Assembly (NCBI GenBank): GCA_937941455.1
Contig: CALDHM010000033.1
Span: 1-64,000 of the forward strand
Reading direction: 5' to 3'
Length of the DNA: 64,000 nucleotides
Origin: an uncultured Pirellulaceae bacterium
Lineage (GTDB): Bacteria > Planctomycetota > Planctomycetia > Pirellulales > Pirellulaceae
The notes beneath the pieces are model-generated. The model was not told the origin of the DNA, did no database searches, and saw nothing but the letters and a program-made list of their open reading frames with translations. Positions 3,825 through 60,497 of the stretch are shown one piece after another (within the stretch, counting starts at the first letter, position 1; every line of letters begins with the position of its first letter). Made by a program: the position numbers and the translations under genes.

Positions 3825-4313
3825 ATGGCCCCGACTCCGACCAATCGTTTGCAAGGTTTTAGTCCCAGCTCTCTGCCGGGACCACTGATCGTCGACATTG
3901 GGGGTGAAGGTCGATATCCGCAAGCTTGGAATATCAATCCGCGCGAACTCAAAACTTTGGGGCCGCAGCGCGGTCAACCGATCCCGCGTCATATTCGCGG
4001 TCGGGCCGACCGTCTGCCGTTGCCTAGCGGCAGTGTCGATCTGGTGATTGTCGAGCGCACTCCGCTGAGCCGCAACGCTCTCCATGAAATCGTGCGAGTC
4101 GTTTCGCCAGATGGCTTTGTCATCTTGCGTCATGCACCGACTCCCAATGGAGATAGTCACGAGTTGGCCAAGCAGATCATCCCCGGTTTCGTATCGCAAC
4201 AAATCGTCCGTCTTGGCAACCAATCCGTTCAAGAGTCCGTGTTCTGCCAAAACTTCGAACGGCTGGACCAGCTCCAGACGTTGCTGCTGCTGGCATCCGA
4301 GGACAGATCATGA
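3825..4313 (+). CDS. Methyltransferase-like protein, class I fold, degenerate
   Basis: This 162-residue protein contains a shortened Rossmann-like methyltransferase core. LIVDIGGEGRYPQAWNIN resembles motif I and the acidic loop, RADRLPLPSGSVDLVIVERT resembles the post-motif region of Methyltransf_11 proteins, and EIVRVVSPDGFVILRH resembles the strand 5 region. The glycine-rich motif is atypical, so SAM binding is uncertain. No ribosome-binding site is obvious before the ATG at 3825. The stop overlaps the ATG of the following ACR3/BASS-family permease by four bases (ATGA), which implies translational coupling and a shared role. It is not an ArsM-type arsenite methyltransferase: it is far too short and lacks the cysteines. 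Confidence 0.7.
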   Translation: MAPTPTNRLQGFSPSSLPGPLIVDIGGEGRYPQAWNINPRELKTLGPQRGQPIPRHIRGRADRLPLPSGSVDLVIVERTPLSRNALHEIVRVVSPDGFVILRHAPTPNGDSHELAKQIIPGFVSQQIVRLGNQSVQESVFCQNFERLDQLQTLLLLASEDRS

Positions 4314-5287
4314 CGGAGCTTGAACGACATCAAGTCCCGATCTACTTTGCCGCCGTCATCCTAGGTTCGGCGATTGGATTGCTGCTACCTGATTTCGCAT
4401 CGTCGCTCGAGGTGTTGATTTGGCCGGTGGTGGGATTGCTGTTGTACTTCACTTTTTTGCAAGTCCCACTGCTTCAGTTTCGACAGGCGCTGACCGACGG
4501 GCGATTTTTGGCCGCCATGTTGACGGCCAACTTTATCTTCGTGCCGGTGGTTGTCTGGCTATTGCTAAAATTCTTGCCCGCGTCGCCGCCAATCCAGCTT
4601 GGTGTCGCACTGGTTCTGTTGACGCCTTGCACCGACTGGATGAACACGTTTACGTTGCTGGGCAAGGGGGACGCGCATCGTACGCTCGCCGCCACGCCGC
4701 TGCTGTTGATCACACAGATCCTGTTGCTGCCATGGTTTCTGTGGCTCATGTTGGAGGCTGACACAAGCCGCATGGTAGCGACTTGGCCATTTGTGCAGGC
4801 GTTTCTGGGATTGATCATGCTGCCCCTCTTGCTGGCTTGGCTGACCGAATGGCACGGCCAACGGAACCCGCGAGTCGCAATCGCTATGAAACGTGCCCGT
4901 TCAATGCCCATCGTGCTGCTGGCGTTGACGGTGTTGGTAATCGCGGCATCGCAAAATCAACAAGTGTTCGAACATTCGCGACAATTGATGCTGGTGACCA
5001 TTATCTTTGCCGTCTACGTGATCGTGTCAGCTGGCGTAGGCCGAATCACCGTCGCGATATTTCGCCTGCCGCCAAGGTCAGGCCGAGGCGTGATTTTTAG
5101 CACTGGCACCCGAAACTCTTTTGTTGTTCTGCCGCTGGTGTTGGCCTTGCCGCCCGAATGGAAACTGGCCATCGCCGTGATTGTGATTCAAGCGTTCGTC
5201 GAGATGTTGGGGATGTTGGCTTTTATTCGTCTCGTGCCGGGATGGCTGCTGCAAGATGCGGGGGGTGAGAAGGGCGAAGTCCGTTGA
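4310..5287 (+). CDS. ACR3 / bile acid:sodium symporter family permease (arsenic-resistance type)
   Basis: A 325-residue inner-membrane protein with about ten hydrophobic segments. The family mark is the LLTPCTDWMNTFTLLGKGD segment in the fourth to fifth membrane spans. It carries the conserved Cys of ACR3-type arsenite exporters (here TPCTDW) and is usually annotated as an arsenic resistance or bile-acid symporter protein. A second conserved stretch, FSTGTRNSFVVLPLVLALP, sits near the end. The gene overlaps the preceding methyltransferase-like gene by four bases. About 600 bases downstream begins a Cys-rich exporter-like cluster ending in an arsR-family gene, which fits metalloid export. Transport of another anion cannot be excluded from sequence alone. 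Confidence 0.8.
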   Translation: MTELERHQVPIYFAAVILGSAIGLLLPDFASSLEVLIWPVVGLLLYFTFLQVPLLQFRQALTDGRFLAAMLTANFIFVPVVVWLLLKFLPASPPIQLGVALVLLTPCTDWMNTFTLLGKGDAHRTLAATPLLLITQILLLPWFLWLMLEADTSRMVATWPFVQAFLGLIMLPLLLAWLTEWHGQRNPRVAIAMKRARSMPIVLLALTVLVIAASQNQQVFEHSRQLMLVTIIFAVYVIVSAGVGRITVAIFRLPPRSGRGVIFSTGTRNSFVVLPLVLALPPEWKLAIAVIVIQAFVEMLGMLAFIRLVPGWLLQDAGGEKGEVR

Positions 5288-5421
5288 ACCTCGCCCGGCG
5301 TTTATTCTAACGGTTTTTCCATTAAGAAGCTTCAAACTTCATCGGCCACTGAAACACTGTCGCGGAATCAAGCCACCGCAGGTCGCCAATCAACTCTCAA
5401 AACAAAAACAAAAAAAGCCAT

Positions 5422-5531
5422 AAAAAGACAGGCATTTTATTTAGGTCTGCGACCTTCCTAGCCTAAATCCCTGTTTTCTACGGCTACCCAAAGCCTCTTT
5501 GGTAGCCCAACTTGAATATGCCTGTCTTTTT
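5422..5531. repeat. Inverted-repeat element C1 with nested hairpins, in a 617-base gap
   Basis: The gap from 5288 to 5904 holds no convincing gene. Within it a perfect 14-base inverted repeat, AAAAAGACAGGCAT at 5422-5435 and its complement at 5518-5531, encloses two further hairpins: ATTTAGG/CCTAAAT at 5439-5468, and a 12-base stem with one bulge at 5482-5507. The whole could fold as a branched cruciform or RNA. A related element lies at 9646-9708. The final run of T could also make the outer stem act as a terminator. Confidence 0.7.
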
Positions 5532-5904
5532 TTCCTCACCCAGCGCCTTGAAGAGCTCTGCACCAAACAAATCGTCAATAGATCCGCAGCACCGAAGGGT
5601 TTCGTGGGGTTTCACAGTGGCTCCATTCGTTAATTTGTTTTGCAGACTTGTGTCAACATGCAAGTTCAACCGCGATTTGGCATTCAAGCAACCGCCTGGG
5701 TTTCCTAGCTCACGGCCCTATCGCCGCATCGTGAGAATTCCTCCTGGCCGGTCCGCGTCCGGATGTCGCAGCCTTAAAATCCCATTTAGCTTTAGTTGGC
5801 ATATGCGTTTAGACGAATATGAGTTAAAAGTGATAGAACGAGGTCGAACCAACTGCGAGCCATGACCAGTAAACGGGCTTGCACACTCAATTAGGATACC
5901 AGAA

Positions 5905-6726
5905 ATGAAATTTTGCATTCAGTTTCGCCAACTCTTCAGTAACGCCTGCATGCTTGCTCTCGTAGTGACGGCGGCTATGAACTCGCCACTACAGGCCCAG
6001 CAATCTTCCTTAACCATTGCTGAGGCACAAGCAGACAGCAACCAGCCGCTGACCTTTCAGTATTTGTTCTTTTGGAAAGAGAACGACACGAAGACTCAAT
6101 CTGTTCTCGATGCAACTCAAAAAGAGCTCGCGAAGCTAGGTGCCAACGTATCTATCAAGCAGATTGGCATTAAGGATCCCGCCAATGCTGAGCTGGTTGA
6201 GCACTACGGTGTAAGCCGCGCTCCGATGCCTCTGGTCGTTTGTACTGCAAGCAACGGCGCGGTAACAAAGGCATTCGTTAGTCCTTTTCCAGCCGCACAG
6301 TTGCAAGAAGGGATCGTAAGTCGCGGTACAGCAGAGAGCCTCAAAGCGCTTCAGGAAAACAAGCTAGTCGTGCTCTGCGCCCTCAATGGTGCCACCGGGA
6401 ACAACAAAACGACGTTGATCAATGCGAGAGCGTTAAAGGCAGACCAACGCTTCGCTCAGTCGGTCGAAGTGATCGCTGTGGACGTTCGCGATCCGAATGA
6501 AGCCTCGCTTTTAGCTTTCTTCAAGTTGAACGCCAACACGGCTGAGCCTACGACCGTCATTCTGGCACCTCCCGGAAAACAACTTGCGAGTTTTTCCGGT
6601 GCGGTCACATCAGCTCAAATCGCTGAGAAGTTAGTGGCTGCCCAAAGTGCATGTTGTCCCGGCGGACAGTGCGGCCCGGGAGCCCAATGCTGCCCAGGTG
6701 GTAATTGTGCACCACAAAAGAAATAG
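5905..6726 (+). CDS. Secreted tandem thioredoxin-like protein with Cys-Pro-Gly tail
   Basis: The 273-residue protein has a signal peptide ending near Ala-Gln-Gln (residue 32). It then has two thioredoxin-like halves, at about residues 45-140 and 150-245. Each has the beta-alpha-beta pattern, and the first has a candidate cis-proline at RAPMPLVV; neither has a CXXC active site, so disulphide chemistry is unlikely. The last 25 residues are a tail with six cysteines in CCPGGQC and CCPGGNC modules, which looks like a soft-metal-binding sequence. It is followed by an ABC permease, an ATPase and an ArsR-family regulator, so I infer a periplasmic or outer-surface metal(loid)-binding partner of that transporter. 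The exact ligand is unknown. Confidence 0.8.
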   Translation: MKFCIQFRQLFSNACMLALVVTAAMNSPLQAQQSSLTIAEAQADSNQPLTFQYLFFWKENDTKTQSVLDATQKELAKLGANVSIKQIGIKDPANAELVEHYGVSRAPMPLVVCTASNGAVTKAFVSPFPAAQLQEGIVSRGTAESLKALQENKLVVLCALNGATGNNKTTLINARALKADQRFAQSVEVIAVDVRDPNEASLLAFFKLNANTAEPTTVILAPPGKQLASFSGAVTSAQIAEKLVAAQSACCPGGQCGPGAQCCPGGNCAPQKK

Positions 6727-6761
6727 TCGCAGCGGAAACACATTGGCAAGGGAGCAATAAG

Positions 6762-7979
6762 ATGAATCTAAAGACATTGATTTGGCGAGAGCTGTTTGAG
6801 CGAAAAACTCAGATGATCACGATCGTCTTCGGCATTTTCCTCGGCATCACCACCGTGGTCGCGATCAAAACCATTTCCCACTACTCCGAGAAGGCCGTCG
6901 CGCGTGAGTTGGATACGCTGGGCGCGAACATCTTGGTGTTGCCGAAATCTGCGACTCTGCAAGATTACTACACCGCAGATATGCAAGATGATGTGATACC
7001 TGAGGAGTACGTGCTGCGATTGACGATGTCGGACGCACAGGGTGTCGACAATCTTTCGCCCAAGCTGAGCATGCCGATTGAATTGCAAGGACGAAAGTTC
7101 ACGCTCACAGGAATTCTCCCTAAGAGTGAATTTACCGCGAAAGCAGCATGGGCCGGAGCTGGAATATTCTCGCAGCACATTGGATGTGGGGCCATCGAAT
7201 TGGCTGGCGAGAAAAAGGACGAAGACAAGCAGGCTCTGGTGCGGAAGCGAGTGATCGAAACGCTTGAACCAAACGAAGCCCTGGTAGGCCACGACACGGC
7301 GACCATTCTGGGTATCAAGGACGGCGACAAGCTGCAACTGAAAGGCGAAGAGTTCAACGTCGTCGCAGTTTTACCCGAGACGGGCACAGTGGACGACTCG
7401 CGAATCTTCGCGCACTTGCACAAGGTTCAAGAGATGTCAGGCAAGGGCGAGGTGGTCAACTGCATCGAAATCATCGGCTGCTGCAAAGAGATTTCCGCTG
7501 GCCTGGTCGGCAAGATCAACGAGCTGCTGCCCGATGCCAAAGTGGTGACGGTAACTCAAGTGGTTGCCACGCAGGCCAAGATTAACTCGATGATGGAGAG
7601 TCTCTCACTGGTCTTCCTTGCGATCATCGTTGTTGTCGGTGGCGCCGGCGTCGCGAATTACATGTACGCTAACGTCAACGAACGGCGACGCGAAATCGGT
7701 ACGCTCATGGCACTCGGGGCCGAATCCAACTTCATCATCAAGTTGTTCCTGACCAAAGCAGCCTTGCTTGGTATCGTTGGCGGCGCAACTGGGTTCATAG
7801 CAGGTACGATCTTCGCGATCACACTGGGGCCAAGACTAGCTGGCGTAGCTGTCTTTCCCATGCCCATCCTCGCTCCGATTGCTGTTGCCATCGCAGTCGC
7901 CATAGCACTCGTTGCAAGCTACTTCCCTGCGCGGCGTGCCGCAACACTTGATCCTTGTGCAACGCTGCAAGAGATTTAG
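6762..7979 (+). CDS. ABC transporter permease, MacB/FtsX family
   Basis: I start at the ATG at 6762, preceded by GGGAGC nine bases upstream, not at the earlier ATG inside the previous gene. The 405-residue protein has the classic layout: one N-terminal membrane helix (residues 18-38), a large extracytoplasmic domain of about 220 residues, and three C-terminal helices of the FtsX type, with NERRREIGTLMALGA after the first and YFPARRAATLDPCATL at the end. The extracytoplasmic domain contains several cysteines (IGCG, VVNC, IIGCC), unusual for this family and in keeping with the Cys-rich secreted protein just upstream. It pairs with the ATPase at 8098. The family normally moves lipids, lipoproteins or peptides, or drives mechanical work; metal(loid) export is an inference from context. 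Confidence 0.9.
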   Translation: MNLKTLIWRELFERKTQMITIVFGIFLGITTVVAIKTISHYSEKAVARELDTLGANILVLPKSATLQDYYTADMQDDVIPEEYVLRLTMSDAQGVDNLSPKLSMPIELQGRKFTLTGILPKSEFTAKAAWAGAGIFSQHIGCGAIELAGEKKDEDKQALVRKRVIETLEPNEALVGHDTATILGIKDGDKLQLKGEEFNVVAVLPETGTVDDSRIFAHLHKVQEMSGKGEVVNCIEIIGCCKEISAGLVGKINELLPDAKVVTVTQVVATQAKINSMMESLSLVFLAIIVVVGGAGVANYMYANVNERRREIGTLMALGAESNFIIKLFLTKAALLGIVGGATGFIAGTIFAITLGPRLAGVAVFPMPILAPIAVAIAVAIALVASYFPARRAATLDPCATLQEI

Positions 7980-7999
7980 GGGCGGTGAATGAGGGTCGC

Positions 8000-8048
8000 C
8001 TTTCGCTACGCGAAAGATCGCAATGAACGCCCTTTCGCTCCGCGAAAG
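8000..8048. repeat. Two identical-stem hairpins between permease and ATPase genes
   Basis: CTTTCGC with a 3-base loop and GCGAAAG occurs at 8000-8016 and again at 8032-8048, with loops TAC and TCC. The copies lie in the 118-base gap between the permease stop and the ATPase start, so they probably form two stem-loops in the transcript. They may tune relative expression or protect the message, or be copies of an interspersed repeat. Confidence 0.6.
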
Positions 8049-8097
8049 ACGACCAAATCCGACTACACCACGAAAGAAATGACCAAGGGCTTAAATC

Positions 8098-8793
8098 ATG
8101 TTAACAATGGAAAATGTCACGAAACGCTACAAGCACCGACGCAGCGATGTCTACGCGCTTCAGGATGCGAATGTTGAAATCGGTACGGGCGAGTTTGTCT
8201 CGATCGTTGGTCCCAGTGGCAGCGGCAAGAGCACGTTGTTATTAATGCTCGGTGGAATGCTGTCGCCTTCGTCCGGCAAAGTCACCTTGCAGGGAACCTC
8301 CCTTTACGACCTATCACCAAACGAACGCGCAAGAATGCGAAAGCAGCATGTGGGATTCGTCTTTCAATCCTTTAATCTTGTGCCTTATTTGACGGCGCTC
8401 GAGAACGTCATGATCCCGCTGTTTTTGTCGGGTGCCGCTAAAGAAGTACAAGAATCGCGAGCCAAAGACCTGCTCGAGCGGGTCGGCTTGGGCGAACGAC
8501 TGGATCACAAGCCCACTGAGCTCAGCATCGGACAGCAGCAACGAGTCGCCCTGGCCAGAATGTTGGCCAACGATCCTCAGCTCATCTTGGCAGACGAGCC
8601 GACAGGAAATCTCGATCCCGATACGAGTGCCATGATACTCGATTTCTTCGAGCAATTTGTGAGCGAAGGGCGAACGATTGTCATGGTGACCCACGACCCG
8701 CGTGCTGCCGAACGAGCTCGCCGCAAACTGCGAATCGATGGAGGTCGCATTGTCGAGGATAAGCAAGACATCAAAACACGAGTTGTTGCGTAA
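8098..8793 (+). CDS. ABC transporter ATP-binding protein, LolD/MacB type
   Basis: A complete 231-residue nucleotide-binding subunit. It has Walker A GPSGSGKST (about residues 38-46), the Q-loop FVFQSFNLVP, the signature LSIGQQQRVALARM (canonical LSGGQ replaced by LSIGQ), Walker B LILADEPTGNLD, and the switch histidine in MVTHDP. This subtype partners FtsX-like permeases, here the gene at 6762. The start at 8098 has no strong ribosome-binding site; the GGGC of AAGGGCTTAAATC is the nearest. The last gene of the cluster, an ArsR-family repressor, follows after a palindromic repeat. Confidence 0.92.
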   Translation: MLTMENVTKRYKHRRSDVYALQDANVEIGTGEFVSIVGPSGSGKSTLLLMLGGMLSPSSGKVTLQGTSLYDLSPNERARMRKQHVGFVFQSFNLVPYLTALENVMIPLFLSGAAKEVQESRAKDLLERVGLGERLDHKPTELSIGQQQRVALARMLANDPQLILADEPTGNLDPDTSAMILDFFEQFVSEGRTIVMVTHDPRAAERARRKLRIDGGRIVEDKQDIKTRVVA

Positions 8794-8810
8794 GAGTTTA
8801 CGAATTCAAA

Positions 8811-8882
8811 ATCAGCCGGTACGCGTTAGCGTCCGGTTATGAATAGGATAGTGCAACCGGGTGCTAACGCACTGCGGCTGAT
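8811..8882. repeat. Family A palindromic repeat, copy A1
   Basis: A 72-base imperfect inverted repeat with ends ATCAGCCG and CGGCTGAT, inner arms ACGCGTTAGCGTCCGGTT and AACCGGGTGCTAACGCACTG. It sits between the ATPase and arsR-family genes. Related copies lie at 9339-9410, 18083-18142 and 19574-19640. Confidence 0.75.
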
Positions 8883-8924
8883 CCAGTAAACAACAAGTGA
8901 CGGAACAACAAGCGAACCTGACGA

Positions 8925-9329
8925 ATGCCAACTACCACAAAAACACTTGTCGACATCGATTTAATGTTTCGGGCTTTTTCCGATCCAACTCGATTACGCT
9001 TGCTGCACCTACTGCACATCCACTCCGAATTGTGTGTCTGCGACTTGGTTTTCGTGCTAGAGCTGCCTCAGCCGTTGGTGTCGAGACATCTCGCTTACCT
9101 GAAGCGTGCTGGCTTGGTGCAAGACAGGCGAGTTGGGCCATGGAAACACTACTCGCTGACAACTGCGGAATGCAGCTTCCACAACAACCTTTTGCGTTGC
9201 ATTTCGACGTGTTTCGGCGAAGTACCGGAATTTGTAGAAGACTCAAAACGGGCCTCGAAGGCGTTGATCGCCAAGAGGTGCGGCATTCTATCAGTCAAGG
9301 CAAAACCAGCGGCGGCCGCACGGGAATAG
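8925..9329 (+). CDS. ArsR/SmtB-family transcriptional regulator
   Basis: A 134-residue winged-helix repressor of the ArsR family. FRAFSDPTRLRLLHLLH is the typical N-terminal helix, and ELCVCDLVFVLELPQPLVSR contains both the ELCVCDL metal-site motif on helix 3 and the recognition helix, followed by HLAYLKRAGLVQDRRVGPW of the wing. The CVC pair is the site that binds As(III), Sb(III) or similar thiophilic ions in ArsR itself. The gene ends the permease-ATPase unit and so probably regulates it in response to metal(loid). No operator of the usual ArsR type was found next to it; it is flanked on both sides by family A palindromes. Confidence 0.92.
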   Translation: MPTTTKTLVDIDLMFRAFSDPTRLRLLHLLHIHSELCVCDLVFVLELPQPLVSRHLAYLKRAGLVQDRRVGPWKHYSLTTAECSFHNNLLRCISTCFGEVPEFVEDSKRASKALIAKRCGILSVKAKPAAAARE

Positions 9330-9338
9330 CAACGCTAT

Positions 9339-9410
9339 ATCAGCCGAAACGCGTGAGCGTCTGGTTATGTTGATGACAATGAAACCGGGGACTAATGCCC
9401 TGCGTCTAAT
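9339..9410. repeat. Family A palindromic repeat, copy A2 (diverged)
   Basis: A second copy of the family A repeat, with ATCAGCCG at its left end, the same ACGCGTxAGCGTCxGGTTATG left arm and an AACCGGGG right arm, but with a decayed right end (CGTCTAAT). It begins ten bases after the arsR-family stop, so copies A1 and A2 bracket that gene in the same orientation. It may serve as a transcript-end structure. Confidence 0.65.
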
Positions 9411-9645
9411 GTGTTCGCTTGCGTCAGAATGCAAGTGTAACGTCTACCTTGATTTCATTGCTAATGGCAACTTGAATGTTTTCAGCCCGGTTGGTGGTCT
9501 CTTGGTCGGCGTTAATGCTTGATGACTTAAGCTATAAAACCGGATTCGCGTGTCACGGACTACCAGTCATGAAATTCCACGTTATGTCAAAATGGTTAGA
9601 TTGTCACTCGAGCGTTTCGCACGGTAAGGAAAATGTAAAAGAAGT

Positions 9646-9708
9646 AAAAGAACAGGCATTATTCAGGCCTTGTTTCTACTTACAGGCCGGATTATGCCTG
9701 TCCTTTTT
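9646..9708. repeat. Inverted-repeat element C2, in the gap after arsR
   Basis: The gap 9411-9848 has no convincing gene. AAAAGAACAGGCAT at 9646-9659 pairs with ATGCCTGTCCTTTT at 9694-9707 with one mismatch, enclosing a short GGCC/GGCC hairpin. The arms match those of element C1 at 5422-5531. A further half-copy, GATGCCTGTCCTTTGTG, follows at about 9730. The run of T after the right arm makes a terminator role possible. Confidence 0.6.
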
Positions 9709-10964: not shown

Positions 10965-11888
10965 GTGACCGAACAGTCGATCCATGTCCCGATCTTGACC
11001 GCAGAAATTATGGATCTGCTCGGCGTTCGCGCGGGCCAGGTGATCGTTGACGGAACCTTTGGGGGGGGAGGCCATGCGGCCGCGTTTTTGGCACGCGTGG
11101 GGCCTGCGGGGCGATTGATCGGCGTCGATCGGGATCCGCAGGCGATTTCCCGAGGTCGCGAAAAGTTCGGGGATCGCATCGATTTGGAATGTGCCAGCTA
11201 CGCGGACTTGCCAAGTATCTTGCGAGAACGTTCCCTTGCTGGCGTCGACAGCATCCTACTGGACCTGGGGCTATCGAGCGATCAACTGGCCGATCACGAG
11301 CGTGGATTCAGCTATTTGGCGGACGGCCCGCTGGACTTGCGGTTCAATCCGACGGAGGGGCGTCCGGCCAGTTGGTATTTGCAGCATCTCGACGAGAAAG
11401 CCTTGGCGGATCTGATCTACCACTTCGGCGAGGAACGTTACAGCCGCGTGATTGCTCGACGAATCTGCGAGCGGCGCAGGGCGGCGCCGATCGCGACGGC
11501 CGCCGAATTATGCGAGCTGGTCAGTCGCTGCGTGCCGCGTTCCCGGAACCACTCGATTCATCCGGCCACGCGGACCTTTCAGGCATTGCGGATTGCCGCC
11601 AATGATGAGTTGGAAAATTTGCGGCAGGCTTTGGAGCAGCTACCGGATTGCCTGCTCCCGGGGGGGCGGTTGGCCATCATCAGTTTTCATTCGCTGGAAG
11701 ATCGGATAGTCAAGCACGCCTTTCGCAACGATCCGCGTTTGCGGGTACTGACCAAAAAGCCGGTCGTTCCCAGCGACGAGGAAATCGCTCGCAACCCACG
11801 CAGTCGCAGCGCGAAACTGCGGATAGCCGAGCGAGTGTCGGAGGACGATCGGGGCGTCGGGAGGCATGCGCGTCGCGAGCGAAACTGA
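10965..11888 (+). CDS. rsmH: 16S rRNA (cytosine1402-N4)-methyltransferase RsmH
   Basis: The 307-residue protein matches RsmH (MraW) along its length: HVPIL at the start, the SAM-binding VDGTFGGGGHAAAFL (about residues 28-42), LLDLGLSSDQLAD with the usual DERGFS-like follow-up HERGFSY, HPATRTFQALRIAANDEL, and ISFHSLEDRIVK near residue 245. It methylates C1402 of 16S rRNA together with RsmI. The start is GTG at 10965; no good ribosome-binding site is visible. In most bacteria rsmH lies in the dcw cluster next to ftsL and ftsI, but here its neighbours are an HtpX-like protease and sixA. Confidence 0.95.
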   Translation: MTEQSIHVPILTAEIMDLLGVRAGQVIVDGTFGGGGHAAAFLARVGPAGRLIGVDRDPQAISRGREKFGDRIDLECASYADLPSILRERSLAGVDSILLDLGLSSDQLADHERGFSYLADGPLDLRFNPTEGRPASWYLQHLDEKALADLIYHFGEERYSRVIARRICERRRAAPIATAAELCELVSRCVPRSRNHSIHPATRTFQALRIAANDELENLRQALEQLPDCLLPGGRLAIISFHSLEDRIVKHAFRNDPRLRVLTKKPVVPSDEEIARNPRSRSAKLRIAERVSEDDRGVGRHARRERN

Positions 11889-50589: not shown

Positions 50590-51315
50590 ATGACCAGCCA
50601 AATCACCCCTCTCTCGGGCCAAGTTCCTGTGCTCGACACGGTCGAGGCAAACCAAAAAATATCCGAGCCGTCGCGAGCAGCGGGGAGGCGGCCCAATCAA
50701 GAACACAAACAAAAACGCCGCTCGGAGATCATCGAGGTGGCGACGCGCATCTTCGCAGAAAACGGTTTTGCAGCCACCGACGTGCAAATGATTGCCGACG
50801 AATGCGGCGTAGGAAAAGGGACGGTTTATCGCTACTTCCCGACCAAAGAGGAACTATTCCTCGCGACGGTTGACGATGGCATGCAGCGATTGAGCAAGGC
50901 GGTCGAGTCGGCTGCCGCAGCTCACGCGAATGACCCGCTGGAATTGATAGCCGCTACGGTCAGAGCCTATTTGAACTTTTTCGACTCTCATCGCGATGTC
51001 GTGGAACTGCTGATTCACGAACGGGCCCACTTCCGTGATCGCAAGGCGTCAACGTATTTCGTGCATCGCCAAGCCAACATCGGTCCTTGGCGCGAATTGT
51101 GCCAAGGGTTGATCGATGCCGGCGTGTTGCGCGATCGCCCGGTGGACGATGTCCTGGATGTCATCTCGGATTTGCTGTACGGAACGATGTTCACAAACCA
51201 TTTTTCGGGTCGGCGCAGAAATCTCGCCGATCAAGCTGGACGAATTTTGTCGATCATCTTCGACGGAATTTTGGCCCAGCCTCGAATCGACGACCGTCAA
51301 TGGGAGCAAGGCTGA
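50590..51315 (+). CDS. TetR-family transcriptional regulator (RND operon 1)
   Basis: The ATG at 50590, preceded by AAGGA, gives MTSQITPLSGQVP and 241 residues, with a 40-residue N-terminal tail ahead of the DNA-binding domain. The helix-turn-helix is ADECGVGKGTVYRYFPTKEELF (about residues 68-89), typical of TetR. The remainder is the helical ligand-binding domain. The stop TGA overlaps the ATG of the following adaptor gene. A consensus-like promoter and a palindromic operator are found 170-230 bases upstream, so it is probably autoregulated and controls the pump. Confidence 0.9.
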   Translation: MTSQITPLSGQVPVLDTVEANQKISEPSRAAGRRPNQEHKQKRRSEIIEVATRIFAENGFAATDVQMIADECGVGKGTVYRYFPTKEELFLATVDDGMQRLSKAVESAAAAHANDPLELIAATVRAYLNFFDSHRDVVELLIHERAHFRDRKASTYFVHRQANIGPWRELCQGLIDAGVLRDRPVDDVLDVISDLLYGTMFTNHFSGRRRNLADQAGRILSIIFDGILAQPRIDDRQWEQG

Positions 51316-52751
51316 TGTGGCAATCAACCGTTCGAGGCCGAGCTGTTCCGCAGGCTTGTGCTGCGCACCCTGGATTCGTCGCGCGAGACCGGCTCGCCAC
51401 GCTATTGGCTGTCGTATTCGTGGCTGGCTGGACGCTGACCGTGACGGGCTGCCACGGCGACAAGACTCAAGCCCAATCGCTCTCCGCGGGGGATTCGCCG
51501 CGCCGCTTGGCGATGAAGGTCCAAGTGGCTCCGATTAGCCGCGGCAGTATCACAACCGACCTGGAGCTGACCGGAAATATCCTGCCGCTGCGGCGGACTT
51601 TGATCGTCTCCCAAGTGGATGGCGTGATCCAATCGATTCCCGCGTCGGGGCGAAAGATTGAGGCCGAAATCGATGGCCGCCGCTACTCGGAGATGCTCAG
51701 CTTGAATTTGGGGCACGAGGTCAATGAAGGGGACGTGCTCGTTGTTCTCGATCCCACAGAATACGAGCTGCAACTGGCGGCGGCGAAGGCGCGGCTGGAG
51801 CAAGCGAACAAACAACTGGAGGATCTCCTTGCCTGGCGGCGCCCCGAGACCGTGCGGCGCGCTGCGGCGATGCGAGCAGAGGCGGCGGCCCGCCTCGAAC
51901 GTGCCAAGACCGAATTTGAGCGGGTCCAGACATTGGTCAATCAGCGAGCCGGCGCCCAGCAAGAGTATGATCACGCGATGGCCGAGTTGAAGTTCGCCGA
52001 GGCGGGTCTCGAACGGGCCGAGGCGGAATACCAAGAGGTCACGGCTGGTCCGACCGAATCGCAAGTCGGAATCGCTCGGGCCCAGGTCGCTCAAGCCGCG
52101 GCGGAGGTGGCAATTCACCAGGACCGCCTGAATCGCACCATCATCCGCGCACCCTATTCCGGCATCATCACGGAGCGATACGTCTACGAGGGGGAACGAC
52201 TCACCATGATGCCCCGCGTCGAGCTGATGGAGTTGATCGATGTCAGCTTGCTGCTGGTCCAAGTCTCGGTTCCCGAGCGTTACTTGGGGCTGGTGCAACT
52301 CGGCGATTGGGTTCGGGTGCAAGCCGCAGGTCGTGACCAGGCGGTGCCAGGGATGATTGTGTTGGTCAACGAAAAAGTTGATTACGAAACCCGATCATTT
52401 CGGGTTCGCGTGGCGATCGAGAATCACGAGCGAAGGCTCAAAGCCGGCCAGTTCGCCAAAGTTGCTTTCCCCATTTCCGCAGCCAGTGACACCCTACTGA
52501 TTCCTGCCGCCGCTGTCGTCTTTTCTAGCGGCCAACCCCTGGCATTCGTCTATGAACCGACGACGGGAACCGTTGTGCAGCGTCAGCTCGAATTGGGGCT
52601 ACAAGGCCAATCGACCTATGAGGTCCGATGCGGTTTGGCTGAGGGGGACCAGGTCGTGGTGCATGACCCGGCGGTGCTCGCCGATGGCATGTCGGTCGAG
52701 GTGACTAGCGCGGCGCCGGACCAGCCAAAGTCCGCCGAGGGAGCGAACTGA
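51315..52751 (+). CDS. RND efflux periplasmic adaptor subunit (pump 1)
   Basis: The ATG at 51315 overlaps the tetR stop (TGATG). The 478-residue protein has a lipoprotein signal ending in LTVTGCHGD, so it is likely anchored in the inner membrane. A lipoyl-like half (TGNILPLRRTLIVSQVDG), a long coiled coil (about residues 140-250), and RAPYSGIITERYVYEGER and VNEKVDYETRSFRVRVAIE follow, the pattern of HlyD/AcrA adaptors. It bridges the pump to an outer-membrane channel. The next gene, the pump, starts within the stop codon, again as TGATG. No outer-membrane channel gene is in this operon. Confidence 0.92.
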   Translation: MWQSTVRGRAVPQACAAHPGFVARDRLATLLAVVFVAGWTLTVTGCHGDKTQAQSLSAGDSPRRLAMKVQVAPISRGSITTDLELTGNILPLRRTLIVSQVDGVIQSIPASGRKIEAEIDGRRYSEMLSLNLGHEVNEGDVLVVLDPTEYELQLAAAKARLEQANKQLEDLLAWRRPETVRRAAAMRAEAAARLERAKTEFERVQTLVNQRAGAQQEYDHAMAELKFAEAGLERAEAEYQEVTAGPTESQVGIARAQVAQAAAEVAIHQDRLNRTIIRAPYSGIITERYVYEGERLTMMPRVELMELIDVSLLLVQVSVPERYLGLVQLGDWVRVQAAGRDQAVPGMIVLVNEKVDYETRSFRVRVAIENHERRLKAGQFAKVAFPISAASDTLLIPAAAVVFSSGQPLAFVYEPTTGTVVQRQLELGLQGQSTYEVRCGLAEGDQVVVHDPAVLADGMSVEVTSAAPDQPKSAEGAN

Positions 52752-55700
52752 TGCGAATTTCCGCGATTGCCATTTCGCGTCCAGTGCTCGCGACGATGGT
52801 CGTCATGGCGATGATCGTCTTCGGCGTAGTCGCGTACCAACGGATCGGCGTCGACTTGTTTCCAGCCGTCGAGTTTCCCGTCGTAACGATCAGTGTGATC
52901 TACGAAGGTGCCGATCCGGAAACGATGGAAACCGATGTCGCTGAGCCGATCGAAGAGGCGGTCAACACGATCAGTGGCATCAAGTCGCTGCGATCGGAAA
53001 GCTCGACCGGGATGACGTTGGTCTTGGTCGAATTTCAACTGAGCCGCAATATCGACGTAGCCACCCAGGATGTGCGCGACAAGGTTACCTCAATCCGGGC
53101 AAACTTGCCGCTTGGGATCGAGCAGCCGATCATTGAAAAATTCGATCCCGATTCGGCGCCGATCATGGCCGTTTCCCTGTCCGGCCCCGTATCGATCCGC
53201 GAGTTGACGCGGTATGCCGACGATGTCGTCAAGCCACTGATCGAAGGGGTCAATGGCGTCGGCTCGGTGGCCATTGTCGGGGGCCGCGAGCGAGAGATTC
53301 GTATCTGGTTGCGGGCTGACGACCTGCGGCGTTATCACGTGACGGCCGACGAAGTGATTCGGGCCATCGAGCGGGAAAATTTGGAATTCCCCGGTGGTCG
53401 GATCGAAACTAGCGACCGCGAGCTGGTAGTCAAAACTAAGGGGAAGCTGCGCCGAGCCGCGGACTTCAGCGGCGTTGTCGTGGCGACCAGCGGCCTTGTC
53501 CCGGTGCGGCTGGGGGATGTCGCTCGCGTCGAGGATGGCATGGAGGATTTTCGCACCCTCTCGCGATTGAACGGAGAGCGGGCCGTTTCCCTCGAAATCC
53601 GGCGGCAATCGGGTGAAAACATGCTGGCGGTGGCTCAAGGGGTCAAACAACGACTCGAGCGCCTGCGGGGTGACCTGCCGGAGGGCTTTAATCTGACGAT
53701 CACGCAGGATCTGTCCCGTTTCGTTACCGCCAGCGTCAACGAAACACAAACGGGCTTGATTCTCGGCGGCATCTTGGCAGTACTCGTCATCCTCGCCTTT
53801 CTCCGCAGTTGGCGCGGAGCCTTGGTGGCTGCCGTGACGATTCCGACAACGGTCATCGCGACCTATGCACTAATGTGGGCAAGTGGATTTACACTGAACA
53901 TCATGTCGCTGCTCGCCCTCAGTATCTCGGTGGGCATGGTCATTGACGATTCGATCGTCGTTCTCGAAAACGCCTATCGGCAGATGGAGCAAGGCAAAAG
54001 TCGCCGCCAGGCGGCACTCGATGGTATGGCCGAAATCGGCTTCGCCGTGATCGCAACATCGTTGGCGATCATCGCGGTGTTTGTACCCGTCGCCTTCATG
54101 GACGGTTTGATCGGCCGTTTTTTTGTCGAGTTCGGCTTGACGGTGACCTTTGCCGTGATCGTGTCGACATTCGTCGCCGTCTGGCTGTCGCCGATGCTGT
54201 GCTCGAGAGTTTTGGAAATTGTGCCGCAACACGGCTGGCTGTTCAATGTCGTTGAGCGACTGTTCGTCGCGGTCGAATCTGTGTATGGCCGCGTCATTCG
54301 CTGGGCGCTCCGCCGTCGCTGGACGGTGACCGCTCTGGCGTTGGGGAGCTTCCTTGGCAGCCTGGCGTTGCTCCCCTTCGTCGGCACCGAGTTCGTACCA
54401 GAACAAGACGAAGCTCAATTCAGGGTTCAACTGGAAGCCCCATTGGGATCGTCGATCGATCGCACCAGCCGCATCGTGGCCGAGGTCGAGCGTCGGTTGC
54501 GAGCCTTGCCCTACGTCACCAATTTGTACACCACGATTGGCTCCAGCCAGCAAGATCGCGTCAACTATGCCGCGACGCTGGTGCAGTTGCCCGACAAATC
54601 GCAACGTGACCTGACACAACATCAAATCATGGCTCTGGCCCGCGCAGCGGTTGCGGATCTGACTCATACCAAAATCAGCGTCGAATACATCCCGCGGGTC
54701 TCTGGGGGGGGCTTCCGCGCCGCACCGATCCAGTACAACCTCCGCGGTGGTGACATCGCCCTACTGGAGCGGATCGGCCAGCAAATGGTCGAGCGACTGC
54801 GGGCGATCCCGGGGATCGTCGACGTCAATCTGACCTACGACTCGAGCAAACCAGAGATCGAAATTCTGCCCAATCGGGACCGGGCCGCCGATTTGGGAAT
54901 CGACATCGAATCGATGGGCAAGACGGTGCAATCGCTCATCGGCGGGCGGCGGATCAGCACCTTCGAGGATGGTGGCAAAAGCTACGACGTCCGCATCCGT
55001 CTCGCAGAGATCGATCGTGGCCGAAGCGAGGCAGTGGCCGCGCTGCCGGTGCGCGCTCGGTCGGGCGAGTTGGTCGAGTTTCGCAGCCTGGCCGAGGTCC
55101 GCGAGGGGACTGGGCCCGTGCAGATCGATCGTGAAAATCGGATGCGACAGGTCACCATCATGGCGAACCTGGAGAAAACCAAACCGCTCGGAGCAGCGCT
55201 CAACGAAGTTCTCGCCATCGAACGAGAAATCGGCTTACCCCCCGGTGTTCGCAGCGCATTTACCGGCGCGGCCGACTTGATGGCGGAAACGTTCAGCAGC
55301 ATGATTTTCGCGTTAGTATTGGCGCTGGTTCTGATCTACATGGTGCTCGCCTCGCAATTCGAGAGTTTTATCCATCCCTTCACGATCATGGTTTCCGTGC
55401 CACTGTCAGTCGGTGGGGCCCTCGGCGCCTTGGCGTTAACCGGGCTAACCCTGAATATTTTCAGCATGATCGGGATGGTGATGTTGTTGGGCTTGGTCAC
55501 CAAAAATGCGATCTTGTTGGTCGACTATACGAACTTTTTGCGGCGCGAGCGCGGCCTGGCCATGACCGATGCCTTGCTGGTGGCGGGGCCGATTCGGCTT
55601 CGTCCGATTTTGATGACGACGTTGTCAACCGTCGCGGGCATGCTTCCCATCGCGGTGGGCATGGGGGCAGGTTCGGAAAGTCGCCAACCGATGGGGGCTT

Positions 55701-55945
55701 GTGTCATTGGCGGCATGCTGACATCGACCTTGCTGACGCTGGTCGTCATTCCCGTCGTGTATAGTTTGCTGGACGATCTAAGCGGCTGGCTGCTGCGAGG
55801 CAAGGAAGTCAAATCAAACCAATCGGCGGCGCTGCCAGAGCCAAAACGCGCTGCCCGCTCGGAACAGAACGGCGACGGCCATTTGCCCAAGGCGTCCGAG
55901 TCTCCCGCCGTCGACCGTCCGGCTGCCGAAGTTGTCCATCCCTGA
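52751..55945 (+). CDS. RND efflux pump, HAE1/AcrB-like inner-membrane subunit (pump 1)
   Basis: A 1064-residue RND protein with twelve membrane helices and two large periplasmic loops. The proton-relay residues are present: D399-D400 in SVGMVIDDSIVVLEN and K918 in GLVTKNAILLVDY. Marker motifs include NAYRQMEQGKSRRQAALDGM and the AGMLPIAVGMGAGSESRQPM of the C-terminal half. Such pumps export drugs, detergents, lipids or other hydrophobic compounds with proton influx. The substrate is not determined. The C-terminal tail is about 50 residues long and Ser/Ala-rich. Confidence 0.95.
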   Translation: MRISAIAISRPVLATMVVMAMIVFGVVAYQRIGVDLFPAVEFPVVTISVIYEGADPETMETDVAEPIEEAVNTISGIKSLRSESSTGMTLVLVEFQLSRNIDVATQDVRDKVTSIRANLPLGIEQPIIEKFDPDSAPIMAVSLSGPVSIRELTRYADDVVKPLIEGVNGVGSVAIVGGREREIRIWLRADDLRRYHVTADEVIRAIERENLEFPGGRIETSDRELVVKTKGKLRRAADFSGVVVATSGLVPVRLGDVARVEDGMEDFRTLSRLNGERAVSLEIRRQSGENMLAVAQGVKQRLERLRGDLPEGFNLTITQDLSRFVTASVNETQTGLILGGILAVLVILAFLRSWRGALVAAVTIPTTVIATYALMWASGFTLNIMSLLALSISVGMVIDDSIVVLENAYRQMEQGKSRRQAALDGMAEIGFAVIATSLAIIAVFVPVAFMDGLIGRFFVEFGLTVTFAVIVSTFVAVWLSPMLCSRVLEIVPQHGWLFNVVERLFVAVESVYGRVIRWALRRRWTVTALALGSFLGSLALLPFVGTEFVPEQDEAQFRVQLEAPLGSSIDRTSRIVAEVERRLRALPYVTNLYTTIGSSQQDRVNYAATLVQLPDKSQRDLTQHQIMALARAAVADLTHTKISVEYIPRVSGGGFRAAPIQYNLRGGDIALLERIGQQMVERLRAIPGIVDVNLTYDSSKPEIEILPNRDRAADLGIDIESMGKTVQSLIGGRRISTFEDGGKSYDVRIRLAEIDRGRSEAVAALPVRARSGELVEFRSLAEVREGTGPVQIDRENRMRQVTIMANLEKTKPLGAALNEVLAIEREIGLPPGVRSAFTGAADLMAETFSSMIFALVLALVLIYMVLASQFESFIHPFTIMVSVPLSVGGALGALALTGLTLNIFSMIGMVMLLGLVTKNAILLVDYTNFLRRERGLAMTDALLVAGPIRLRPILMTTLSTVAGMLPIAVGMGAGSESRQPMGACVIGGMLTSTLLTLVVIPVVYSLLDDLSGWLLRGKEVKSNQSAALPEPKRAARSEQNGDGHLPKASESPAVDRPAAEVVHP

Positions 55946-57203: not shown

Positions 57204-57281
57204 GAGATCCTAACCCACAACCAGTCCTCGCTTACGCTTCGGGCTACGGTTGCTCACCGATTTTGGATAGGCTTTTAGCTC
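57204..57281. repeat. Family B inverted-repeat element, copy B3
   Basis: The reverse complement reads GAGCTAAAAGCCTATCCAAA, then ATCGGTGAGCAACC and CCCGAAGCGTAAGCGAGG, close to copy B1 and in the same orientation as B2. It overlaps the end of the pump gene that reads leftwards and supplies its TAA stop at 57275-57277. Confidence 0.7.
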
Positions 57282-60200
57282 GGTGCCAAGGCTTCCTCCC
57301 GATTCTCGGCTCCCACATGATCCCCCGCAGATAGGGAGTGGTTCGCGACCGATTTGGATCGTCCATTTCGGCTGAGCACATACCCGCAGGGGATGAGTGC
57401 CAAAGCGAGAAATGTTGCCCCCAGAATCCCGCCGGCGATGGCAACGGCAAGCGGGGGCCAAAATCCGCCCCCCCCTAAAATCAACGGCAAGAAGCCGGCG
57501 ATGGTCGTCAGGGTCGTCGCGAGAACATGTCGTGTCGAACGGAGCAACACATTGTGAATCGCCGCGCAATTCCCCGACCGCGCCGCCTTGTCACCCCGAA
57601 TCGCCGCGAGGACGACGATCGAATCGTTGATCGCAACTCCGATCAAACCCATCGTCCCCACGATCGGCATGAAGCCGAAGGGAAATCCGAATATCCACAA
57701 TGAACCCATGCTCAAACCGACCGACAGAACTCCGATGACCGCAATCAAGGCAGCCGAGCGGAACGACTGGAACGACAAGACCAGCGTTGCTAACATCAGG
57801 ACGGCCAAGACGCCGACATTGGCCATCAAATTGCCAATCGCATCATTACGTTTTGCCACCTCGCCGCCGTAACTCAGCGAGTAGCCAGCGGGTAGCACGA
57901 AACCACATTCCTGCAGGCGACGTTCGAAATCGTTCAGAATCGGTGCCGTCAATTCTCCTGAGCGCGTAAAGGCCTGGATTTCGTTCATTCTTCGACCGTC
58001 AAGGCGAGCGATTCCAGCGGGCTCGGGGAGGAGTTTCATCGAGCCCAGCGTCGAGAGGGGAATCCCCACGAATTCCGGCCGGTTCGAATTGATTTTGCCA
58101 GGCGTTTGACCGCTGCCAGAACTGGCTGCCGATAGCGATAATAGATTCAACGAAGAGATCAGATGAATGTCCGCTCGTTCCTGATTACCCACCCGCACTC
58201 GAATCGGGACTTCTTCGATCCCCTCCAAGATCGACCCCGACACAGCCCCCTCAAGCAAACCGTTCAGCTGTCGCGCGACGTGATTGTAATCCAAGCCTAA
58301 GACTCGAGCTTGGGCGTGATCGACATCGAAATTGATCTTGGGGAGCACGTCTTGCAACTCCGCACGCGTCGCGATGACCTTGGGAGTGTCAGCCAAACAG
58401 CACCTAACCTGCTGCCCTAATCGACTTAATTCATCGAGATCGGGACCGAAGATCCTAACCTCGATCGGCGCGTAAAACGAAGGCCCCTGTTCCAGTAGTC
58501 GCACGAGCGTCAGTGATTGCGGAAATTTCTGTTCGAGGCAGCACTGCAATTCACGAACGAACGCGACACCATTGTCCGCCGCATCGCGCTGAATGATCGC
58601 TTGAGCGTAACGCGATGAATTTTTGCGACTGGGAATCAAGTTGTAGTAGAACACGGGCACACTTTCGCCGACGAACCAATACACACCGCGAATTCCGTCG
58701 ACCTTCTGCAACTCGGCCGTCATTGCCTCGGTGAGACGCTTTGTTTCATCGATGGAGGTGCCGGGGGACAATTCGATTTCAATATGAACTTGATCCCGAT
58801 CGGCTGCCGGAAAAAACTGAATCGGCAGGCGACTCGCGGCGACGAATCCAGCAAGTGGTACAAGCAAGGAAACGGCGATGCCCCAATGAGGACGTTGGAG
58901 CAAAAACATCAAAGTACGACTCCACAGCCGACCCAGTCGGTCGCTGTGAAAACCGGAACGCCACCACGAAGGACGCTCGCAGGGGTCGACTTTGATCCCC
59001 AGGCCGGCGAGTGCCGGAACCACGGTCATACCCAACACGAACGACGAGGCAATGGCCAAAATCACGCTGATGGCGATACTCCCCACGAATTCGCCGGCGG
59101 GGCCTGGCATGAGCGCGATCGGTGCGAAGGCGAAGGCCGTCGTGAGCGTCGACCCCAGTAGCGGAATCGCCAAATGGCGAACGCAACTGCCCACCGCCTG
59201 GAGCGGCGGTTGTCCCCCGCGTAACTCCCGGCCGACTTCGTCCACCATCACGATCGCATTGTCGATCAACAACCCAAGTGCGATGATGAGTCCCGTCACC
59301 GACATCTGGTGAATGGGGACGTCCAAAAATCTCAAACCGGCCAACACCATTAACGACACGATGGGGAGTGCCGAGCCAACGATCAGCGCTGACCGCCAGC
59401 CCATCAAAAACAAAATCACGGCGAAAACTGCGACGCCACCGACGATCAGGTTGCCCAACAGCGATGCCAGCCGAGCCTCAACGTAGGGGGATTGGCTGAA
59501 GATCACCTCCAGTTCGACACCTTGCGGAAGTTCTGACGAGAAAGCGGCCAGGATTTTCGCGATTTCTCTCGTCCACAGGTCGATGCGAAAGTCGTTCCGC
59601 ACCAGAGCGCCGACCACGACAGCCCGCGCACCGTTGATGGTGGCCAGCGTCGCTGGCGGCGATACGGCTCCGCGCTCGATGGTGGCGATGTCGGAAAGTT
59701 GCAGCGAGACGCCATCGCGATTGGTTTGAATCGGCGTGGACGCCAAACGGTTGAGCGAATTAATTTCACCGCTTACCTCGAGTAACAAGGCGCCGGCGGG
59801 CCCGCGGGCTTGGCCGGCCGAGACCTTCGAGTCGCTCGCCCCGATCTGCCGCGAGACCTCAATTGCCGACAGGCTCAAAGCCGCAGCCGCTTCCGGATTG
59901 ATCGTGACGGTGATCTCTTCGTGAGGATCACCGAAGAGTTCAGTCTTCTCTGTGCCGGGAACCGATCGCAAACGCTCTTCGAGCACGCGTGCCCACCGCC
60001 GCAACAGTGCTGGACTCTCCTGCGTGCCGCCACGCCACTTGACAGCCAACAGCATCGCAAAGGCCTTGATCTCAATTTGTTCGAATTCGGGACGGGAGGC
60101 TTCGGCGGGCAGTTGGACGATGGCGTCCTCGAGCTTGCCGCGAACTCGCGACCAAATTACGGGAGCTTCGATCGCCGTGACTGAATCCAGCAATTCGATC

Positions 60201-60487
60201 TGGATGAATGAAACGCCCAAGCGACTCGTCGAACGGATTTCTTTGACTTTCTCGATCTTTTTGATCTCGTCCTCGAGTTTCTCGGTCACTAGCGCCTCGA
60301 CAAGTTTCGCATCGGCACCGGGGAGGAGCGTCGTCACACTCGCCGCTCGCGGGGCTAACAGCGGATCCTCCATGCGCGGCATCACCAGCGCCGATGAAAT
60401 TCCTGCCACCACGATCAGGCCCAAGGTCAAACCCAGCAGTCGCGGATCGCGGTAAAACAGAGTTGCCAATCCCCAATCTGAAACCAC
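57275..60487 (-). CDS. RND efflux pump, inner-membrane subunit (pump 2)
   Basis: I use the GTG at 60487, which has AAGGA seven bases upstream and lies 11 bases after the adaptor stop, giving 1070 residues; an ATG 36 bases earlier would overlap the adaptor gene. The fold is RND: twelve helices, two periplasmic loops, NDSIVVLAAIRGDKAA in the C-terminal half. The relay differs from AcrB, with D409 then N410 in GLLIDNAIVMVDE and N954 where the conserved Lys normally sits (GVAINDSIVVL). It is in an operon with an adaptor and a TetR regulator, with no outer-membrane channel. The substrate is unknown. Confidence 0.92.
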   Translation of the reverse strand: MVSDWGLATLFYRDPRLLGLTLGLIVVAGISSALVMPRMEDPLLAPRAASVTTLLPGADAKLVEALVTEKLEDEIKKIEKVKEIRSTSRLGVSFIQIELLDSVTAIEAPVIWSRVRGKLEDAIVQLPAEASRPEFEQIEIKAFAMLLAVKWRGGTQESPALLRRWARVLEERLRSVPGTEKTELFGDPHEEITVTINPEAAAALSLSAIEVSRQIGASDSKVSAGQARGPAGALLLEVSGEINSLNRLASTPIQTNRDGVSLQLSDIATIERGAVSPPATLATINGARAVVVGALVRNDFRIDLWTREIAKILAAFSSELPQGVELEVIFSQSPYVEARLASLLGNLIVGGVAVFAVILFLMGWRSALIVGSALPIVSLMVLAGLRFLDVPIHQMSVTGLIIALGLLIDNAIVMVDEVGRELRGGQPPLQAVGSCVRHLAIPLLGSTLTTAFAFAPIALMPGPAGEFVGSIAISVILAIASSFVLGMTVVPALAGLGIKVDPCERPSWWRSGFHSDRLGRLWSRTLMFLLQRPHWGIAVSLLVPLAGFVAASRLPIQFFPAADRDQVHIEIELSPGTSIDETKRLTEAMTAELQKVDGIRGVYWFVGESVPVFYYNLIPSRKNSSRYAQAIIQRDAADNGVAFVRELQCCLEQKFPQSLTLVRLLEQGPSFYAPIEVRIFGPDLDELSRLGQQVRCCLADTPKVIATRAELQDVLPKINFDVDHAQARVLGLDYNHVARQLNGLLEGAVSGSILEGIEEVPIRVRVGNQERADIHLISSLNLLSLSAASSGSGQTPGKINSNRPEFVGIPLSTLGSMKLLPEPAGIARLDGRRMNEIQAFTRSGELTAPILNDFERRLQECGFVLPAGYSLSYGGEVAKRNDAIGNLMANVGVLAVLMLATLVLSFQSFRSAALIAVIGVLSVGLSMGSLWIFGFPFGFMPIVGTMGLIGVAINDSIVVLAAIRGDKAARSGNCAAIHNVLLRSTRHVLATTLTTIAGFLPLILGGGGFWPPLAVAIAGGILGATFLALALIPCGYVLSRNGRSKSVANHSLSAGDHVGAENREEALAPS

Positions 60488-60497
60488 AGATGATTCC

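Follow-up and report, generated by a model that had tools for sequence, protein, structure and literature searches.

The DNA examined here, hereafter the window, is a stretch of 64,000 nucleotides from contig CALDHM010000033.1 of an uncultured Pirellulaceae bacterium (assembly GCA_937941455.1, 4.04 Mb). Positions 5905-9329 hold four genes, which code for a secreted thioredoxin-fold protein with a cysteine-rich tail (here termed TrxC), an FtsX/MacB-type ABC permease, a separate ABC ATPase and an ArsR repressor. An initial annotation had read them as a same-strand group, and the open reading frame (ORF) listing of the window agrees: all four are present on the + strand. The closest named relatives of the permease are from planctomycetes. 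Recurrence of these genes beside arsenic-detoxification genes points to unstudied ATP-driven arsenic handling in the cell envelope. The features of the unit are as follows:

5800-5821, no strand: candidate ArsR operator, the palindrome CATATGCGTTTAGACGAATATG, about 80 bp 5' of the TrxC start codon
5905-6726, + strand: TrxC, secreted tandem thioredoxin-fold protein of 273 aa with a Cys-rich C-terminal tail, proposed periplasmic carrier
6652-6708, + strand: Cys-rich tail of TrxC in translation, residues 250-268 (C250, C251, C256, C262, C263, C268), with low pLDDT (predicted local distance difference test score)
6762-7979, + strand: FtsX/MacB-type ABC permease of 405 aa, with the outer-domain trio C142 (7185-7187) and C240-C241 (7479-7484)
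8098-8793, + strand: ABC ATPase, LolD/MacB-like (PF00005, 8e-36)
8925-9329, + strand: ArsR/SmtB-family repressor, above the HTH_metalloreg cut-off, with C37, C92, C96 and C119 conserved in the window clade

We compared the unit with relatives at 80 loci, the best of 294 from a scan of genome contigs; hence, near relatives dominate the counts. The 80 loci come from 14 named phyla, with 43 of them in Planctomycetota and 15 lacking a phylum name. At 73 of these loci the TrxC, permease and ATPase genes adjoin one another and share a strand. Of the 80 permeases, 78 have a TrxC gene nearby and 78 the ATPase gene; two TrxC misses and one ATPase miss fall at contig ends (loci L096, L117 and L154), while the ATPase miss at L105 does not. 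Stieleria tagensis and Adhaeretor mobilis are among the planctomycetes that carry the cassette. A grouping this regular in order and direction, with an essentially invariant cysteine trio in the permease, exceeds chance, and the comparison shows the three structural genes to be one conserved cassette. ArsR lies within 5 kb in 65 of the 80, and the co-occurrence in other genomes that the initial annotation had named as the way to check the unit is thereby observed. The permease is found in 24 of 294 genomes of the phylum (E<=1e-60) and TrxC in 8 of 30 relatives searched, the source genome being counted in both; a search of 4 genomes of the same genus gave no TrxC, which makes the distribution of the cassette patchy.

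The permease matches both FtsX (PF02687, 66 bits, 4e-18) and MacB_PCD (PF12704, 42 bits, 1.6e-10) above their cut-offs, when taken from the ATG at which its relatives begin, giving 405 aa (the ORF listing has a longer TTG start). Relatives in a 37-sequence alignment are 50-74% identical to it. Four cysteines, at 142, 234, 240 and 241, lie in its outer domain; of 112 family permeases, 111 have Cys at 142, with His in the remaining one, and all 112 have it at both 240 and 241. For comparison we took 40 further MacB_PCD loci of 12 planctomycete genomes, namely the first 40 of 118 PF12704 places once a cassette member had been set aside, together with four places close to the start of a contig or on contigs of unchecked extent. 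The 39 permeases recovered from these control loci all lack Cys in the aligned columns (position 142 is a gap in every one of them, positions 240 and 241 in 10), and their outer regions contain no CC pair. The model of the window permease has MacB (5gko) as its top fold match in Foldseek, with LolCDE, HrtBA, YtrEF and BceAB also present. These comparisons show the permease to be a member of the MacB/LolCDE/HrtBA class (type VII, mechanotransmission) with three invariant extracytoplasmic cysteines, and the initial description of a MacB/FtsX-type permease with cysteines in its outer domain is borne out.

The N-terminus of TrxC reads as signal peptide-like, and its structure model (pLDDT 85.3) contains two thioredoxin-like folds, in agreement with its secondary structure and with Foldseek matches to PDI bb' domains, calsequestrin and archaeal PDO; Pfam returns sub-threshold thioredoxin matches only. 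The tail, CCPGGQCGPGAQCCPGGNC, holds six cysteines, and the last blocks of the model have low pLDDT: the tail is probably flexible. A secreted tandem thioredoxin-like protein with a six-Cys tail was what the initial annotation had described. Homologues in a 42-sequence alignment are 23-40% identical to the window TrxC. Among 82 homologues, 77 have at least three Cys in the final 60 residues, and 60 have exactly three; a CxxC motif in the body occurs in a single one, the body of the window TrxC being without it. Absence of the body CxxC in 81 of 82 homologues argues that TrxC is no classical oxidoreductase. Several variants were seen: a coiled-coil-like end in place of the Cys tail (L141 4940-5995 and L145 5059-5967); a tandem pair of TrxC genes 5' of the permease (L077, L081, L085, L089, L093 and L133), with both copies tailless in L133; and TrxC genes without a permease on the retrieved stretches of L070, L071 and L075, the first two of which have ArsR-like ORFs.

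Hidden Markov models (HMMs) for the gene context were built from the neighbour clusters of the 80 loci and run on every ORF up to 5 kb from each of the 80 permeases. They find ArsR at 65 loci, ACR3 at 45, ArsC-like proteins at 24, ArsM at 17, ArsP-like at 11, ArsF at 7 and ArsA at 5, as well as RND pumps at 14, CcdA/DsbD-like proteins at 13, thioredoxin_3 at 12, adaptors (MFP) at 10, small thioredoxins at 8 and P-type ATPases at 4. Under stricter score limits the counts are ArsR 65, ACR3 45, ArsC-like 23, ArsM 17, ArsP-like 8, ArsF 7, ArsA 5 and adaptor 9, with ArsR on the same strand in 63 of the 80 and ACR3 in 43. At least one enzyme or transporter marker is present at 52 loci and at least two at 32 (52 and 31 under the strict limits). 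The models were seeded on the same 80 loci; on 30 unseeded planctomycete ACR3 loci they find ArsR at 17, ArsC-like proteins at 19 and ArsM at 10. Context representatives exceed curated cut-offs for ACR3 (TIGR00832, 377.6 and 455.1 against 282.8 bits), ArsM (NF008823, 319 against 263) and ArsF (NF040494, 110.9 against 60).

The 40 control loci have, in contrast, no ArsR, ACR3, ArsC or ArsP and one weak ArsM match (30 bits), along with RND 1, adaptor 3, P-type ATPase 1 and small thioredoxin 1. Fisher p for the difference is 1e-19 for ArsR and 4e-11 for ACR3, and within the same 12 genomes ArsR accompanies 6 of 16 cassettes as against 0 of 40 controls (p 2.5e-4). Chance linkage of the cassette to ars genes is ruled out by this control, and comparison shows that ars gene clusters in many phyla contain the cassette. 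The idea of a thiophilic metal(loid) unit, already put forward in the initial annotation from cysteine content and the regulator, gains independent support from this linkage, from the cysteine trio of the permease and from the recurring operator-like palindrome described below. A second recurring group of genes was also noticed beside the cassette: ArsP-like, Trx_3, ArsF-like, small thioredoxin and CcdA/DsbD-like membrane proteins, in varying subsets (the upstream part of L098, L119 and L126).

The repressor of the window matches HTH_5 (5.1e-16, 58.7 bits against 22) and NCBIfam HTH_metalloreg (84.5 bits against 55). Its CVC metal motif, noted initially, is present in the window protein, but conservation of the motif is mixed: in 16 of the 18 aligned ArsRs of the window clade, G or N occupies the position of the second Cys of CVC, the exceptions being the window protein and one paralogue from L044. 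In this clade C37 is kept in all 18, C92 and C96 in 16 and C119 in 17. Among the 65 nearest ArsRs, 34 have LCxC followed by D, E, Q or N, 13 have another CxC and 18 have none. The pattern ATATnCG-N6-CGnATAT has one exact site in the whole assembly, at 5800-5821. A search for the palindrome with up to one mismatch gives 28 matches in 22 of the 80 loci; an ArsR or TrxC ORF starts close to 27 of these matches, and the reversed pattern, used as a control, gives 1 match. When upstream regions are scored against ATATTCG..CGAATAT, 22 of 74 reach at least 12/14 (shuffled sets: mean 0.5), a count that is not fully independent since the half-site was picked after viewing the palindromes; the assembly-wide and reversed-pattern checks are cleaner. 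By its sequence the palindrome before the operon is operator-like and a candidate ArsR site.

Arsenic resistance in bacteria usually consists of cytosolic reduction or methylation together with efflux by ACR3, ArsB or ArsP, and to our knowledge the fate of arsenicals in the periplasm has been little studied. From these sequence comparisons we lean towards reading the unit as an ArsR-controlled arsenic-detoxification module, in which a periplasmic carrier with a cysteine tail is the partner of a MacB/LolCDE-type ABC. The arsenic link of the cassette is well supported; as to the mechanism, we infer the substrate, the direction and the hand-over. As(III), Sb(III) or trivalent organoarsenicals would release ArsR from its operator, upon which the cassette would be made; TrxC would be exported to the periplasm and hold the arsenical via the thiolates of its tail. 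The ABC would draw no substrate from the cytosol, coupling ATP hydrolysis there to motion of its periplasmic domain. The metalloid would then move between the Cys trio of the permease and the TrxC tail, by analogy with LolCDE handing lipoproteins to LolA. Three thiolates are the preferred coordination of As(III), and we infer that trio and tail exchange a ligand. ACR3 or similar permeases would deliver the arsenical to the periplasm, and the relay would prevent its re-entry and the poisoning of periplasmic thiols. A more specific version can be offered only tentatively: an ATP-driven relay at the outer face of the inner membrane may pass As(III) between the tri-Cys site of the permease and the usually three-Cys tail of TrxC, so that ars systems would gain an energy-driven step once the arsenical has been moved to the periplasm, and a sister lineage may have been recruited to CusA/CzcA pumps. 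The initial annotation held that MacB-type pumps were not known for metal(loid)s; this does not stand, since excerpts of two reviews link MacAB to arsenite (PMC10094684, PMC11253441), one of them stating that its deletion in Agrobacterium raised intracellular arsenite and lowered the minimum inhibitory concentration of arsenite, which makes arsenite plausible as the substrate of a MacB-type ABC.

The main rival is a redox helper, which we regard as rather unlikely: the ABC and TrxC would relay thiol or reducing power to the periplasm and keep arsenical-binding thiols reduced, as proposed for FetBCD/FetEF of Campylobacter, in which FetB and FetC are FtsX-type. Like the unit reported here, the fetMP-fetABCDEF (P19) operon of Campylobacter jejuni is concerned with metal handling and encodes periplasmic thioredoxin-fold proteins beside an ABC transporter, and according to excerpts of two papers loss of fetA, fetB, fetC or fetD impairs growth, while FetE and FetF are redundant (PMC10783030, PMC6083913). 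CcdA/DsbD-like genes near 13 of the 80 cassettes and small thioredoxin genes near 8 would fit such a role, as would a permease on a Pelobacter plasmid (30% identical), which lies among P-type ATPase, HMA, DUF2318 and CusA genes, since FetA, in the same excerpts, also has DUF2318. The Campylobacter operon differs in that it serves iron uptake, is Fur-regulated and has two permeases and CxxC thioredoxins, whereas the window unit has an ArsR, a link to ars genes and a tandem fold without CxxC. Near-absence of the body CxxC weakens the redox reading, and CcdA is near a minority of the cassettes only.

Tripartite efflux seems to us less probable again. Here the MacB-like pump would recruit an unlinked MacA-type adaptor and TolC to expel periplasmic As(III) to the outside. 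The FtsX and MacB_PCD domains, MacB as nearest Foldseek fold, the arsenite resistance conferred by MacAB in the review excerpts cited above and a permease clade linked to RND pumps and adaptors all speak for it. Unlike MacB, however, the unit has an unfused ATPase, encoded by an ORF of its own, and its dedicated partner is the Cys-tailed protein; the outer Cys trio, missing in the 39 controls, likewise sets it apart from MacAB-TolC. No MFP match lies within 5 kb of the cassette in the window; of the 80 relatives, only 10 have an adaptor gene nearby, accompanied in 9 cases by an RND gene. We reject membership in MacAB on account of the separate ATPase and the lack of a linked adaptor.

Type VII ABCs are frequently sensors or extractors, and BceAB and LolCDE are among the fold matches: the ABC could in principle sense or clear envelope proteins damaged by arsenic, the metalloid itself not being handled. 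We consider this very unlikely, as three invariant cysteines and the Cys tail suggest direct thiol binding. With LolCDE-LolA, our model for the proposed hand-over, the unit shares a separate LolD-like ATPase, a related permease fold and a periplasmic carrier, but it has one permease gene rather than two, and substrate and carrier are unrelated. Membership in LolCDE is rejected by the scores: the ATPase reaches 230.3 bits with the LolD model against an equivalog cut-off of 307.75, and the permease 36.2 bits with the lolCE model against 362.45. That the cassette is a mere passenger, near ars genes through shared clustering in resistance islands, as its optional place among ars clusters and patchy occurrence might suggest, is scarcely credible given that ArsR, TrxC, permease and ATPase recur as a group across many phyla and that the operator-like palindrome, where found, precedes the cassette or its ArsR.

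Several observations weigh against reading the unit as an arsenic-detoxification module. Around the window cassette, no match to ACR3, ArsC, ArsP, ArsA or ArsF occurs within 5 kb, and the single ArsM match in that range (21 bits, at 10965) resembles a ribosomal-RNA methyltransferase. Among the cassettes of the 12 planctomycete genomes, 10 of 16 have no ArsR or other ars marker within 5 kb, and 58 of the 80 loci have no operator match at up to one mismatch. Two context labels are loose: ArsC-like representatives score 142 and 87 bits against an ArsC cut-off of 174.3, and the ArsP-like representative passes Pfam ArsP_1, with its best NCBIfam matches, below cut-off, being the SO_0444 Cu/Zn efflux and SaoE families. 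Fewer than three tail cysteines are found in 5 of the 82 TrxC proteins. The permease model is of moderate quality (pLDDT 76.6), with the C142 loop (137-164) below 50, too weak there to place C142 relative to C240 and C241. Closeness to a planctomycete alignment defines the set of 80 loci, 75 of which have titles that mark them as contigs of metagenome-assembled genomes (MAGs), so that binning errors are possible. From the opposite side, none of 30 planctomycete ACR3 loci (1.5 kb flanks) carries the permease or TrxC, which makes the cassette an accessory, optional part of ars clusters. These 30 are the loci available for 44 ACR3 matches; among the 14 outside the survey, one (G105:C1:2385122-2386123) lies about 1.2 kb from a cassette permease.

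The permease tree, built by a quick method from 112 of 116 candidates, bears on the same question. It leaves out L055, in which the permease is interrupted by a stop, and L070, L071 and L075, in which no permease was found; 107 of the 112 rows are different, with five identical pairs, of which four are one contig from two collections. Ars contexts predominate in large groups of the tree, and the window permease falls in a starred clade of 14 rows (97*), of which 8 are ArsR-only, 4 ars and 2 without marker. Also against an arsenic role throughout, a starred clade of 24 rows (97*) holds 12 of the 13 rows labelled RND (an RND or adaptor gene with no ArsR or ars marker) and 10 rows without marker, and a starred, long-branched clade of 9 rows has 7 without marker. 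With the 10 marker-free cassettes noted above, these two clades argue against arsenic as a theme common to the whole family. RND genes are also present near some ars-labelled loci (14 of 80 loci overall). From the tree contexts and the Pelobacter neighbours, the wider permease family looks metal-related, with arsenic as the main theme on the side of the window. One clade adjoins RND pumps and adaptors in the manner of CusCBA/Czc systems, and the RND-context representative passes the curated CusA/CzcA cut-off; the window permease, by contrast, belongs to an ArsR-linked clade and has no RND gene within 5 kb. At a long distance from the cassette, the window also encodes RND-type efflux proteins and an adaptor, at 51087-55945 (+) and 57275-60523 (-).

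With known ars operons (ArsR, ACR3, ArsC, ArsM, ArsP, ArsA) the unit shares the type of regulator and a frequent physical linkage, but no description of its ABC-TrxC part as a component of them was found. In the excerpted text of a PeerJ survey of ars operons, 5 of the 717 transporters in its table are ABC transporters of unspecified type, all with ArsY and considered minor (PMC4435449). A search of the open-licence PMC literature, with excerpts of that survey and of PMC7438021 included, gave no prior description of the cassette. Should the arsenic-detoxification reading be true, the ABC and its carrier, present in 14 named phyla (mostly as MAGs), would represent a class of arsenic-handling systems so far unstudied, and the reach of type VII ABC mechanotransmission would grow to include a metalloid. 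The reading also names testable residues (C142, C240 and C241 in the permease, and those of the TrxC tail) and a candidate operator.

Two further genes lie upstream of the unit:

4310-5287, + strand: SBF-superfamily permease resembling arsenic-resistance proteins (PF01758, 49.1 bits), a possible functional neighbour
3825-4313, + strand: short methyltransferase-like ORF (PF08241, 24.3 bits, cut-off 21.2), overlapping the SBF gene by 4 bp, of uncertain association

The first was initially read as an ACR3-type permease. It does belong to the SBF superfamily and is 43-46% identical to its 15 best plasmid matches, of which 8 are named 'arsenic resistance protein', 1 'Arsenite efflux pump ACR3' and 4 'bile acid:sodium symporter', with 2 unnamed; but it has no match to the ACR3 model TIGR00832 at E 1, its only match being to TIGR00841 (30.6 bits, cut-off 326.3), and we reject it as a true ACR3. 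No homologue was found at E<=1e-20 in 19 other relatives searched. A gap of 617 bp separates it from TrxC. The short methyltransferase-like ORF has no match to the ArsM HMM at E 1e-4 and was rejected as an ArsM. The sole TIGR00832 match of the genome is on another contig (C47), where the 14 kb examined hold no ArsR or cassette HMM match.

A scan for sigma-70 promoters gave 0 sites against 3.2 expected in shuffles, a result that is uninformative for this phylum. A 24-nt direct repeat, its two copies 79% alike and containing ACAGGCATT, brackets the cassette at 5413-5436 and 9637-9660, and an inverted ATGCCTGT can be read within about 100 bases after each copy; it is possibly a small mobile or terminator-like element. 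This repeat pair, together with weak GC differences, was judged insufficient for the cassette to be a mobile insertion or island. Between the permease and ATPase genes the palindrome CTTTCGCTnCGCGAAAG occurs in two exact copies (8000-8016 and 8032-8048; mean of 0 in shuffles), which look like a repetitive extragenic palindromic (REP) element within the operon. REP-like elements (AACCGG..CTAACGC, up to 2 mismatches) also stand on either side of arsR, at 8823-8870 and 9383-9398, and may part arsR from the remaining genes at the RNA level.

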